From contig NZ_JPVO01000048.1 in NCBI RefSeq assembly GCF_000772955.1, positions 62,001 through 126,000 of the forward strand: 64,000 nt of DNA, given 5' to 3'. The stretch comes from Ureibacillus sinduriensis BLB-1 = JCM 15800 (GTDB taxonomy: Bacteria; Bacillota; Bacilli; Bacillales_A; Planococcaceae). Position numbers and translations under genes: made by a program. Of the stretch, positions 27,930 to 44,826 are shown one piece after another (within the stretch, counting starts at the first letter, position 1; the number at the start of each line of letters is the position of its first letter). The notes below the pieces were generated by a model. It saw only the letters and a list, made by a program, of their open reading frames with translations. It made no database searches and was not told where the DNA came from.

Positions 27930-27990
27930 GTGGCGGTTCTTCAAGGGAAGGGGAACTTGTCGATTCGAATTTTCATACACCTGGGAAGAT

Positions 27991-28084
27991 GAAGCACTTT
28001 TTGTGTGGGAGCTTTCAGTGTGAAAAGTGCTTCCTGGAGGGGATGAAGCACTGTTTGGGGAAGATTTCAGCGTAAAAAGTCTTC
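27991..28084. repeat. Two tandem imperfect inverted-repeat units
   Basis: Unit 1 has perfect 11-bp arms GAAGCACTTTT (27991-28001) / AAAAGTGCTTC (28023-28033). Unit 2 (28045-28084) is a degenerate copy, GAAGCACTGTTT...AAAAAGTCTTC. Both share GAAGCACT and a TTTCAG-GT-AAAA segment. Confidence 0.7.
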
Positions 28085-28310
28085 ATGAGAGGTTGATTCC
28101 CTTGGTCTAATATAAAAAATACTACAAACGCACGATGATCCAATTTTTACCCAATGAGTACAATACTTCCTTAACTTCCTTCCAAACTGCCTATGAACCT
28201 AAAACAGAATAGGCTGAATTTTGAATCGGCTCGAAAAAAGAACAAACTCCATGGAACGAATAATCATTTCGCTAAAAATATTAAAATTATGCTATTCTCC
28301 ATGAAAGCAC

Positions 28311-31171: not shown

Positions 31172-31354
31172 AATTTCACCTCTTCAATGTATTATAATTT
31201 TTTCTTTAGTAAAAAGTAAATTGTGAAGTTTTTGTAAGAGTATTGAAAGGGATTTTTAAAAAAATTATCGAAAATTTATGTTTAAGGATAATAATATCGG
31301 GAATAGGGTACTTGGGGAAATATAATAAAATAACCACGTTAAGGGGAAGTTGCT

Positions 31355-31714
31355 GTGAAAAAAATATTAATTGTAGATGATCAAAAAGGAATACGCCTTT
31401 TATTAAATGAAGTCTTCTCCAAGGAAGGTTATAAAGTGTATCAAGCCGCAAATGGTATGGAAGCGCTTAATCTTATTGATCGCGAAGCTATAGATGGGGT
31501 CATGCTGGATATGAAGATACCTGGAATGGACGGTATCGAAATTCTAAAAAGAATACGTGAAAAGAATCCTCACCTGCCTGTATTTATGATGACCGCATTT
31601 GAAGGCGAGGAGATTCTTATGGAAGCGAATCAATTAGGGATCGCCAAGTATTTTAGAAAACCATTTAATATTTTGGATGTTAGAGATGAAGTGAATACAG
31701 TATTAAACGGTTAA
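31355..31714 (+). CDS. spo0F: Sporulation response regulator Spo0F
   Basis: 119 residues: a single receiver domain without an output domain, as in Spo0F. The key residues are Asp8-Asp9 (magnesium), phospho-acceptor Asp52 in MLDMKIPGMDG, Thr80 and Lys102 in RKPF. It relays phosphate from sporulation kinases to Spo0B in the phosphorelay. GTG 31355 has AAGGGGA upstream. Position between the DUF2529 gene and fbaA matches B. subtilis, which separates it from other small receivers. Confidence 0.95.
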   Translation: MKKILIVDDQKGIRLLLNEVFSKEGYKVYQAANGMEALNLIDREAIDGVMLDMKIPGMDGIEILKRIREKNPHLPVFMMTAFEGEEILMEANQLGIAKYFRKPFNILDVRDEVNTVLNG

Positions 31715-31796
31715 CTAATTGAAAGGTTCCTGAAAAAGTGTGAAAATTTCTTTAATGCGGAATTTTTTTATTGATTACCAGGCTTAATTGATTTTT

Positions 31797-32425
31797 TTGT
31801 GGCTATCGCAAGCTTTCGCTACATAAAAGCATGACGGCTCATACTTGAGAGCGTTAAAGAAAGATATTTGCGCCTGACGCAAGCTTTCGGCTCAGAAAAC
31901 AATCCCGTCTCCTAGAACTTGAGAGACGGGTATAAAAATTTTGTGGCTGTCGCAAGCTTTTGCCACAGAAAAGCATGACGGCTGATACTTGAGAGCGTAA
32001 AAGAAAGATATTTGCGCCTGACGCAAGCTTTCGGCGCAGAAAACAATCCCGTCTCCTAGAACTTGAGAGACGAGTATAAAAATTTTGTGGCTGTCGCAGG
32101 CTTTTGTCACAGAAAAGCATGACGGCTGATACTTGAGAGCGTAAAAGAAAGATATTTGCGCCTGACGCAAGCTTTCGGCGCAGAAAACAATCCCGTCTCC
32201 TAGAACTTGAGAGACGAGTATAAAAATTTTGTGGCTGTCGCAGGCTTTTGTCACAGAAAAGCATGACGGCTGATACTTGAGAGCGTAAAAGAAAGATATT
32301 TGCGCCTGACGCAAGCTTTCGGCGCAGAAAACAATCCCGTCTCCTAGAACTTGAGAGACGAGTATAAAAATTTTGTGGCTGTCGCAGGCTTTCGCCACAG
32401 AAAAGCATGACGGCTCATACTTGAG
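31797..32425. repeat. 144-bp tandem repeat array, four full units plus a partial fifth
   Basis: The motif GTGGCT recurs at 31799, 31943, 32087, 32231 and 32375, exactly 144 bp apart each time. Each unit has two related halves of about 71 and 73 bp. Half A opens with the hairpin GTGGC..CGCAAGCTTTT..GCCAC, half B with GCGCC..CGCAAGCTTTC..GGCGC. Each then has AGAAAA and a second hairpin region (GCATGACGGCT..TACTTGAGAGC in A, CCCGTCTC..GAGACGRG in B). Units 2-4 are almost identical; unit 1 is the most diverged. The fifth ends in a full terminator hairpin. There are no spacers as in CRISPR. Confidence 0.95.
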
Positions 32426-32441
32426 AGCCGTCATGCTTTTT
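32401..32441 (+). terminator. Terminator hairpin at the end of the array
   Basis: A perfect 16-bp stem, AAAAGCATGACGGCTC (32401-32416) with GAGCCGTCATGCTTTT (32425-32440). In internal repeat units the right arm is degraded. Confidence 0.8.
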
Positions 32442-32449
32442 GCTATGAT
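32421..32449 (+). promoter_or_regulatory. fbaA promoter overlapping the terminator hairpin
   Basis: -35 TTGAGA (32421-32426), 17-bp spacer, -10 TATGAT (32444-32449). The -35 lies in the loop/right arm of the hairpin above. Confidence 0.7.
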
Positions 32450-32506
32450 TAGTCTGGAATATTTATCTTATTAATTTTATTAACTGTCCGAGGGGGATTT
32501 TCGAAT

Positions 32507-33361
32507 ATGCCATTAGTATCGATGAAAGAAATGTTAATTAAAGCGAAAAATGAGGGGTATGCTGTAGGGCAATTCAATATTAATAACCTTGAATTTACTC
32601 AAGCGATTTTGCTTGCTGCCGAAGAAGAGAAATCTCCGGTTATCCTTGGCGTTTCTGAAGGTGCAGGGAAATATATGGGCGGTTTCATTGCTGTAGTACA
32701 AATGGTAAAAGGATTAATGGAAAGTTATAAAATTACAGTGCCAGTCGCGATTCATTTAGACCATGGTTCAAGTTTTGATAAATGTAAAGAAGCGGTTGAT
32801 GCAGGGTTTACATCGGTTATGATTGATGCTTCTCATCATTCATTTGAAGAAAATATTAAAATTACAAGTGAAGTTGTTGAATATGCACATGCCAAAGGTG
32901 TTTCGGTCGAAGCGGAATTAGGAACAGTTGGTGGGGAAGAAGATGGTGTGATTGGTGGGATTATGTACGCTGATCCAGCCGAGTGCAAGGCGCTTGTTGA
33001 GGCGACAAATATTGATTGCTTGGCACCTGCATTAGGTTCTGTACATGGCCCTTATAAAGGTGAACCAAAGCTTGGCTTCGATGAAATGAAACAAATTGGC
33101 GAAGAAACTGGAATGCCTCTTGTACTTCATGGAGGGACGGGTATTCCGGACGAACAGATTAAACGTGCTGTTTCTTTGGGTACTGCTAAAATTAATGTGA
33201 ATACTGAAAATCAAATTGCATCAACAAAAGTAATCCGCGACATTTTGAATTCCGATGCAAAAGTTTACGATCCTCGTAAATATTTAGGACCTGCACGGGA
33301 TGCAATTAAAGAAACGGTTATTGGTAAAATGCGCGTTTTCGGTAGCTCGCAAAAAGCATAA
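32507..33361 (+). CDS. fbaA: Fructose-bisphosphate aldolase, class II
   Basis: 284 residues. It interconverts fructose-1,6-bisphosphate with dihydroxyacetone phosphate and glyceraldehyde-3-phosphate in glycolysis and gluconeogenesis. Zinc-ligand segments are visible: [22 protein letters not shown] and LHGGTG. The phosphate-binding NVNTENQ follows. The sequence aligns by memory nearly end to end with B. subtilis FbaA. Shine-Dalgarno GAGGGGG precedes ATG 32507. Its own promoter is at 32421-32449. Confidence 0.97.
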
Positions 33362-33760
33362 AACAATCCAATACTCGATTTGTTTTCAACAAAAGTATTA
33401 ATTTATAAGGAAGCAGAATTGTTTATTTTGTTTAGAAAAATGATACCTACTATAAATAATAAAATGAACTGCTTTTCTGATTTATCTTCGTTAATGGCAG
33501 TGAACGATAGTTGGGAAGACGAAAAGACCCCTGCCGCATGAAGATAAAGTCTTGGCGAGTATAATGGAGCATGGATGTAAAGCGATAAAGAGTAACAACA
33601 ACATAAAACTGCATCTCATGCTCTTTAAACTAGATACACCATTTGCCAGGGCGTAAATGATATATTAATGATTTGCAGGAGAAGTGTTTGATTGTTTTCA
33701 ATCGGCCTTCTCTTCGTTTTTTTGATTGACAAAATAATAAATACTCTGGAGGAAAAAACA
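33362..33760. other. Intergenic region fbaA-tal
   Basis: A weak A/T hairpin (33360-33366 with 33380-33386) may end fbaA. The middle 250 bp holds no open frame. A terminator at 33679-33723 precedes the tal ribosome-binding site. Confidence 0.5.
33679..33723 (+). terminator. Hairpin terminator upstream of tal
   Basis: GAGAAG (33679-33684) / CTTCTC (33707-33712) encloses GATTG/CAATC and is followed by a T run. It ends only about 37 bp before tal, so it may act as an attenuator. Confidence 0.75.
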
Positions 33761-34411
33761 ATGAAATTTTTTATTGATACAGCCAATTTTGAGGAAATTA
33801 AAGAAGCACATTCTTGGGGGATTTTATCAGGTGTTACAACTAACCCTTCATTAGTAGCAAAAGAGGAGAATGTTTCTTTTCATGATCGTTTACGTGAAAT
33901 TTCGGAATTAGTAAATGGTTCGGTAAGTGGGGAAGTCATTTCACTGGATGCGGAAGGAATGATTAAAGAAGGTTTGGAATTGGCTGCGATTGCCCCAAAT
34001 ATTACAGTTAAACTTCCAATGACTCCCGAAGGCTTGAAAGCATGTAAATTCTTTTCTGAAAAAGGGATTAAAACAAATGTAACGCTTATTTTTAGTGCGA
34101 ACCAAGCTTTGATGGCCGCTCGTGCTGGTGCTACATACGTATCACCATTTGTAGGGCGTCTTGATGATATCGGTCAAAGCGGAGTTGAATTAATTGCCAC
34201 AATTTCGGACCTTTTCGCCATCCATGGTATTGAAAGCGAAATAATTGCCGCTTCCATCCGTCACCCTCAGCACATTACTGAAGTAGCTCTGGCTGGAGCT
34301 GATATCGCAACAACTCCATTTAAAGTACTGAAACAATTATTCCACCATCCTCTAACAGATAAAGGGATTGAAGGGTTCTTGGCTGACTGGGAAAAGCGCA
34401 AAAGTAAATAA
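33761..34411 (+). CDS. tal: Transaldolase / fructose-6-phosphate aldolase family protein
   Basis: 216 residues from ATG 33761 (CTGGAGGAAA upstream); a longer frame from 33692 runs through the terminator and is rejected. It is a short TalB/FSA-type barrel with the Schiff-base lysine at Lys84 (NITVKLPMT). Other conserved segments are [36 protein letters not shown] and SIRHPQH. It matches YwjH of B. subtilis in the same position. Role: transfer or cleavage of a dihydroxyacetone unit of sugar phosphates in the pentose phosphate pathway. Confidence 0.94.
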
Positions 34412-44306: not shown

Positions 44307-44826
44307 TTCTAATAGGACAATTTCAGGAGGGGGGAGCGCAGAAATGTCTTGGTACAAGCTCTAACAAGACAAATCATAGGAGAAGGGAGGTAGAAGTGTC
44401 GCAAAACAAGCTCTAATAGGACAAAACATAGGAGAAGGAAAGCAGAAATGTCCCAAAGCCGGCTCTAATAAGACATAAAATAGGAGAAGGAAAGTAGAAG
44501 TGTCACGAACTCAGCTCTAACAAGACAAAACATAGGAGAAGGAAAGGAGAAGTGTCCCAAAGCCGGCTCTAATAAGACAAAACATAGGAGAAGGAAGGTT
44601 GAAATGTCCAAAACCCGGCTCTAATAAGACAAAACCATGGAGAAGGGAGGTAGAAGTGTTCCAAACCCGACTCTAATAAGACAAGACATAGGAGAAGGAA
44701 AGTAGAAGTGTCCCAAACTCAGCTTTAATAAGACAAATCAGTTGAAATCAATCTCAAAAATGTCACGAACCCGGCTCTAATAAGACAAATCTAGGACGAA
44801 TGATGGCAAAGGATGTCACAGTAAAG
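44307..44826. repeat. 52-bp tandem repeat array, ten units
   Basis: The motif CTCTAA (variants TTCTAA, CTTTAA) starts at 44307, 44359, 44411, 44463, 44515, 44567, 44619, 44671, 44723 and 44775, always 52 bp apart. A typical unit reads CTCTAATAAGACAAAACATA, then GGAGAAGGAAAGTAGAAGTG, then TCCCAAACCCGG. Unit 8 and the last units diverge. Period 52 is not a multiple of 3 and no frame is open across it. There are no unique spacers. Confidence 0.95.

Follow-up and report, generated by a model that had tools for sequence, protein, structure and literature searches.

The gap between spo0F and fbaA in Ureibacillus sinduriensis BLB-1 = JCM 15800 is occupied by a run of nearly identical hairpin-bearing units, which raises the questions of what such an array is, how it may have grown, and why only its last unit resembles a working terminator. 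The stretch of DNA analysed, referred to as the window, comprised 64,000 nt of contig NZ_JPVO01000048.1.

The array and its terminal hairpin

Upstream of the array, an orf at nt 31355–31714 (+ strand) encoded a response regulator of 119 aa. Its product matched the response-regulator receiver in NCBIfam, with no Spo0F model among the best 25 of 64 matches, and the name spo0F was taken from the first-pass annotation and from synteny, the matches behind it being those of the receiver domain only. Downstream of the array, the orf at nt 32507–33361 (+ strand) was assigned through NCBIfam to fbaA, encoding a class II fructose-bisphosphate aldolase of 284 aa, an orthologue of which was present in all 25 genomes of the genus.

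Tandem Repeats Finder located a tandem array at nt 31795–32428 with a period of 144 bp, 4.4 copies and 97% matches, in agreement with the 144-bp array described in the first-pass annotation. With the inverted-repeat and unit comparisons added, the whole array spans nt 31795–32440 (+ strand) and consists of four 144-bp units followed by a terminal hairpin S and a terminator. Units 3 and 4 were identical (144/144) and unit 2 differed from each of them at two positions (142/144), whereas unit 1 was more distant from unit 2 (136/144) and from units 3 and 4 (134/144 each); the earlier proposal that units 2 to 4 are near identical and result from a recent or homogenised expansion is supported by these identities.

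S is a 34-nt hairpin with a stem of about 6–9 bp and the conserved inner sequence TG[AT]CGC..GCTTTC. The S cores started at nt 31804, 31875, 31948, 32019, 32092, 32163, 32236, 32307 and 32380, with spacings alternating between 71 and 73 bp, and each 144-bp unit contained two related modules. The duplicated module expected from the first reading was thus found, but not at an exact length of 72 bp. All nine S were detected on the + strand by covariance model R1, which had been built partly from this same array: four of the A type (nt 31795–31828, 31939–31972, 32083–32116 and 32227–32260), four of the B type (nt 31866–31899, 32010–32043, 32154–32187 and 32298–32331), and a ninth (nt 32371–32404) adjoining the terminator.

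That terminator, a predicted intrinsic terminator at nt 32401–32440 (+ strand) identified by the inverted-repeat and stem scripts, had perfect 16-bp arms (nt 32401–32416 and 32425–32440), an 8-nt loop and a T run (TTTTT), and the partial fifth unit with an intact terminator hairpin reported earlier was therefore recovered. It was absent from the output of a consensus terminator scan, which gave four weak sites on the - strand. The left arm of the larger stem followed every S in the array, and the whole right arm with the T run was present only at the last one. In the internal units, stems of 7–11 bp were measured by a script that saw 5 of the 8 internal S, and none passed a test for a full stem plus T run. 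The loss of the right arm that had been noted for the large A stem was evident, and the B stem had lost it as well, less severely. The folding energy of the whole array was low on both strands (z of -4.6 and -5.8, 20 shuffles each), so that whole-array folding is uninformative as to strand.

The predicted fbaA promoter and the intergenic gap across the genus

When 61 genomes were searched with the array as query, 21 matched, all of them from the genus of the window. Of the 25 genomes of the genus, 24 were read across the spo0F-fbaA gap, G010 being left out as its contig ends in fbaA. By eye, S accompanied a terminator at fbaA in 18 of the 24, with two or more copies in 16; a fixed-criteria script, which misses degenerate S in G005, G006, G007 and G019, found one or more S in 17 genomes and at least two in 13. 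A single S was found in G006 and in G023, the contig of which begins there, while G012 and G014 possessed a terminator with a remnant of S at most. Neither S nor terminator was present in G009, G016, G021 and G022, which formed one clade in the fbaA tree (100/100), deeper forks being weak. The number of S copies ran from 0 to 9, and detected copies were spaced 71 to 268 bp apart with periods unrelated between genomes, which indicates that neither the 144-bp period nor a reading frame is conserved. Within one fbaA array the arms could be of different types, and a type that was terminal in one species could be internal in another, so that a replacement process beyond simple duplication is needed. 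In G018, a separate terminator-like hairpin was located directly after spo0F, ahead of the S array (L016). Two outgroup genomes without S (L268 and L269) carried other degenerate short tandem repeats upstream of fbaA, that of L268 being ATCCGAGCAAGAG-like.

These comparisons bear on two alternatives to an array of hairpins. Draft status, the identity of units 3 and 4, and a relative in which contigs end within the array (L139, L085) might suggest an assembly artefact; however, 16 of 24 genomes had similar arrays at fbaA, and some of these were assembled into one or two contigs (G002, G005 and G020). The array is thus unlikely to be an artefact, a reading to which we assign a very small probability, although its exact copy number in this draft genome of 55 contigs is unproven. 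The second alternative, a repeat protein encoded on the complementary strand, was suggested by two overlapping frames at nt 31854–32434 (- strand), 184 and 180 aa long and periodic at 48 residues, which had been pointed out from the ORF list and do exist. It was rejected because S periods in relatives are frequently not divisible by 3: spacings of 97, 101, 103, 106, 107, 112, 116, 119 and 122 bp, among others, would break the frame. The conserved feature is hairpin pairing, and the frames, judged non-coding, have a practically negligible chance of being translated.

A promoter for fbaA was predicted at nt 32421–32449 (+ strand) by promoter scan and genus comparison, with TTGAGA, a 17-nt spacer and an extended -10 element TATGAT. 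Its spacer coincided with the right arm and T run of the terminator. Neither the position of the right arm inside the -35/-10 spacer nor the overlap of the terminator with the predicted promoter was noted in the first-pass annotation. The pattern TTG[AT]G[AGT]-17 nt-TANNNT was sited 74–99 nt before the fbaA ATG in all 24 genomes, and a terminator stem entered the 17-bp spacer in 20 of them, with 16–21 bp in 18 and 10 bp in two (G012 and G014), versus stems of 5–8 bp in the four genomes lacking a terminator. Before the -10 element, the spacer ended in TGC, TGT or TGA in the 20 genomes with a terminator. The terminator loop was conserved as ACTTG(A/T)GAG, so that the loop is largely the -35 element. 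The conservation of this pattern suggests that the predicted fbaA promoter is functional.

Intrinsic terminators overlapping promoters, in which a terminator and the promoter of the next gene have sequence in common, form a recognised arrangement. Unlike such overlaps in general, the fbaA spacer varied widely by species while its 17-nt length and its complementarity to the left arm just upstream were kept, which suggests that the terminator has been rewritten several times within the promoter spacer while the sequence characteristics of terminator and promoter alike were retained. As the right arm is the promoter spacer, the last terminator would stop spo0F transcription exactly at the putative start of fbaA transcription.

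The S hairpin, its dispersal and its relation to known repeats

In an alignment of 21 hand-picked S copies, which also served to build the covariance model, 5 of the 11 stem pairs changed on both sides, and covariation was 0.257 compared with 0.113 after shuffling. Among 109 distinct S copies of the genus, 93% of stem positions were paired versus at most 83.5% in 200 shuffles, and 92 copies from named records gave 78% versus at most 69%; the four S copies of G356, a genome from another family, varied too little for this comparison. Copies for the pairing test were selected by the inner sequence alone, and the evidence for conservation of that sequence comes from the alignment and from diverged pairs. 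S thus displays the compensatory stem changes of a structured RNA or single-stranded DNA hairpin. A classical array of double-stranded operators, one form of the protein-binding array considered at first, is unlikely, as stem pairing rather than stem sequence is conserved. In 30 diverged pairs of units, identity was 0.81 in S, 0.61 in the spacer and 0.56 in random stretches; the higher conservation of S speaks against its being a mere passenger and is not what neutral duplication alone predicts. The A-rich 3′ flank of S was common to both the S and the terminator hairpins. Kissing loops formed through AAGCTT were considered and dropped, many S copies having other loops. No Rfam 15 family reached its gathering threshold in nt 31200–33800 of the window, the six weak matches including none near it.

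The covariance model detected S in all 25 genus genomes, with 1–75 copies each at E values up to 0.001, and in 64 of 151 sampled family genomes, representing 10 of 19 genera. In an order-level sample 69 of 200 genomes contained S, the matches listed all belonging to the family of the window, and in a class-wide sample 9 of 250 did, one of which (G356) was from another family. A pattern scan of named genomes yielded 104 stretches, the 80 listed coming from Lysinibacillus, Ureibacillus, Viridibacillus and Psychrobacillus, and 80 of the 104 were used in the later analyses of S. In many Lysinibacillus copies S was a 36-nt tandem module within a larger dispersed element, and in Psychrobacillus vulpis seven matching S followed one another at 37–38 nt. 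At L206 and L207, 35-nt S copies lay head to tail, with no spacer or terminator, after a gene that by translation resembled an ABC transporter ATPase. The search for single units elsewhere that had been recommended thus found S dispersed through genus and family, beyond fbaA. A blastn search of the locus against phage and plasmid collections gave no match, and no viral contig matched a slightly shortened exact S pattern. Phage and plasmid origins were set aside, the one weak plasmid match of a 37-nt query (Paroceanicella, E of 0.4) being judged due to chance.

Such dispersal might be expected if S were a REP mobilised and amplified by a RAYT transposase: S is a short hairpin, G356 and several genomes of the family contain many scattered copies of equal score, and Y1 transposases occur in the genus. 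The two distributions disagreed, however, since Y1_Tnp matches were present in 14 of 25 genomes as against S in all 25, and G013, the richest in S (75 matches), had no Y1 transposase match. Twenty transposase loci held only two S core matches, and a plausible stem was seen in just one of the two, in L239 at a distance of about 1.2 kb; the four loci whose flanks were read had another palindrome there. Mobilisation of S by a RAYT is therefore considered very doubtful. In those four loci (L235, L236, L238 and L239), repeated palindromes around GTGTRCCTGG surrounded a RAYT-like Y1 transposase; by eye they were unlike S, and they are presumably the transposase's own REPs.

In G356, a module of about 150 bp, consisting of a first hairpin (H1), S and a terminator, was dispersed over loci L273 to L283. 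Eleven loci were fetched; with L278 to L280, which had no strict S match, omitted, all eight remaining loci were co-directional with an open frame of at least 80 codons and lay 44–111 nt downstream of it. The terminator arms differed between copies and yet remained complementary. These copies indicate that S and terminator travel together, much like SPRITE of pneumococci. At L281, S and terminator were as in the other copies and the upstream part was not common to them.

Several short repeats described in other bacteria resemble S in part. According to passages of PMC3049150, SPRITE of Streptococcus pneumoniae is dispersed near gene 3′ ends and has a long terminator-like hairpin with AAAA/TTTT ends, as in the H1-S-terminator copies of G356; as described there it is a single duplex, whereas here the terminator is preceded by a second conserved hairpin that also occurs alone and in tandem. 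BOX of the same species, organised as boxA-boxB(n)-boxC in those passages, is likewise a short modular intergenic repeat with variable tandem modules, foldable if transcribed and limited to related bacteria. The window array differs in being anchored at an intrinsic terminator, with one end fixed by a promoter and no recognised boxA- or boxC-like ends; this separation rests on the description of BOX rather than on its sequence. REP and BIME, in the passages available of PMC3733652, are small extragenic palindromes, dispersed and clustered as S is, a REP being defined by a GTAG or CGTC tag at one end. No such tag was seen by eye in the 21 aligned S copies, the ends of which were T-rich and A-rich; S further differs in its head-to-tail copies and in the lack of a matching RAYT. 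S was absent from passages of PMC3049150, PMC3733652 and PMC2267715, and searches of open-access titles and abstract beginnings by sequence words or topic returned no description of it. S is apparently an undescribed repeat, more widespread than the fbaA locus, that behaves like BOX, SPRITE and REP, lacks the tag and RAYT of REP and is linked to terminators, the one at fbaA lying within a predicted promoter. As a hairpin repeat of family-wide occurrence, it had no match above threshold in Rfam 15 and none in the open-access literature searched.

Incomplete internal terminators and a proposed mode of array growth

The association of S with terminators was examined in 103 loci of the genus (20 fbaA loci and two sets of 40 and 43 fetched stretches), which were chosen from the best listed matches and not at random. 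Of 106 S clusters, 56 ended at a hairpin of at least 14 bp, versus 11 of 1050 positions taken as controls from the same set of loci, and 50 lacked a final 14-bp hairpin, L198, L200, L206 and L227 being among those showing none; the stem script misses the final S in L249, L254 and L257 and also some internal S. Genes identified beside S included rlmD, mltG, clpP, purA, the ornithine carbamoyltransferase gene, rplT and tlyA; the name plsY was given to a best match below its cut-off, and glyS and argR are names that we presumed from the translations. A factor or the polymerase might read S in the nascent RNA and thereby set the strength of the adjacent terminator by antitermination or attenuation, and the adjacency of S to terminator-like hairpins, together with the A-rich flank that both hairpins share, is what such control would lead one to expect. 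The identified neighbours have no common pathway, however, an antisense S would be outside the terminated transcript, and no factor was identified; S as a regulator of termination is therefore regarded as improbable.

Internal copies were almost never complete. In the 35 multi-copy clusters with a final hairpin, an internal stem of at least 14 bp was present in 2 of 92 units, both in L192. This was the sole multi-copy cluster with complete internal terminators, the two lying within a longer repeated unit. L202 retained internal stems of 8, 11 and 12 bp. A copy of the final left arm, with at least 70% identity, was carried by 69 of the 92 internal units, which indicates that most of them are terminators with a shortened right arm and were not armless from the start. 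What remained of the internal units at fbaA, rlmD, mltG and a number of further loci was S with the left arm and loop, the right arm being reduced to its first bases; such units would thus be expected neither to terminate transcription nor, at fbaA, to form a promoter. Of the possibilities listed at the outset for the array, an expanding terminator came closest, in the form of incomplete copies upstream of one intact terminator. A simple rule, testable in any collection of these genomes, is that in most arrays no terminator but the last is complete.

The incomplete copies might be maintained by selection. S hairpins in the 3′ UTR of spo0F would then bind a protein or RNA, as a sponge or a 3′-end stability element, and selection would keep the internal terminators broken so that the transcript holds all S. 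Such a multi-hairpin RNA agrees with the covarying stems and conserved inner sequence of S, with the likeness of S copies despite drifted spacers, and with the retention of arrays at orthologous loci (fbaA, rlmD and mltG). If selection for read-through were the cause, broken terminators would not be expected in arrays antisense to the neighbouring gene. With gene direction taken from open frames of at least 90 codons, some of them doubtful (L190 and L329), 39 of the 106 clusters were antisense to the upstream frame, or 38 once L190 was removed, as its frame was spurious and the upstream gene co-directional. Nine antisense multi-copy clusters with a final terminator, L190 included, had 19 internal units and no full stem; without L190 there were eight clusters and 13 internal units, a group set by hand for the left-arm count. 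In L201, L220, L301, L325 and L330 it was mainly S that was repeated without an arm, and in L305 S was repeated with another small hairpin; L202, also of this group, had the stems of 8–12 bp given above. A clear cut in the right arm was present in only one antisense cluster, L319, with L320 of another genome being alike and masked at its end; clear truncated-arm arrays were nearly all co-directional with the upstream gene, as a multi-hairpin RNA would predict. Independence of the truncation rule from gene direction is thus weakly supported. In the antisense clusters, however, S lies outside the transcript of that gene, and L319 shows truncation there too; in G018 the terminator-like hairpin stands between spo0F and the array, the copy number falls to 0 and rises to 9, and no partner was found. 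Taken together, a multi-hairpin RNA appears possible but rather unlikely.

Duplication whose breakpoint falls within the right arm is favoured over selection, as a preference and not as proof, because three arrays showed matches of 4–5 bases between breakpoint and upstream end (by eye, GGCG in L195, CTGAG in L196 and GGCG in L193) and the whole unit would be explained in one step. No such match was traceable in the window array itself. If the rule is due to mutation, the arrays would be a natural record of hairpin-seeded tandem duplication; if to selection, S arrays would represent an undescribed class of RNA.

We therefore propose, with slightly better than even confidence, that transcription of spo0F stops at a terminator lying within the fbaA promoter and that the units upstream of this terminator are tandem duplicates, themselves incapable of termination, of a module of S and terminator. 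At the level of sequence, the proposal draws on the anatomy of the array, the covariation and dispersal of S, synteny, the incomplete internal terminators and the position of the last terminator over a promoter-like sequence. The module, in which the terminator is intrinsic and its A-tract is the 3′ flank of S, would have expanded locally through tandem duplications with the downstream breakpoint in the loop-proximal part of the right arm, perhaps by hairpin-provoked strand slippage onto a short match upstream of S, and exchange between units may have followed. As for S, the most likely reading is a mini-hairpin of REP/BOX type that spreads, often in company with terminators, and is tolerated or co-opted. 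More speculatively, and with a low probability, S may be the recognition hairpin of an undescribed Bacilli system that builds arrays in a fixed direction. The copied stretch would begin upstream of S and end shortly after entering the right arm of the terminator next to it, leaving a working terminator only in the copy at the 3′ end; terminators and promoter spacers such as that of fbaA would be rewritten with arm complementarity kept.

Other repeats were noted in the window and near S arrays. A second tandem array at nt 44357–44796, with a period of 52 bp and 7.3 copies by Tandem Repeats Finder, was unlike S by eye, and nt 27988–28092 held a unit of some 52 bp twice, containing GATGAAGCAC. 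At rlmD of G004 and G005 (L190 and L194), similar-looking units by eye (GATGAAGCACTTT and AAGTGCATC) formed arrays of greater length immediately ahead of the S arrays.
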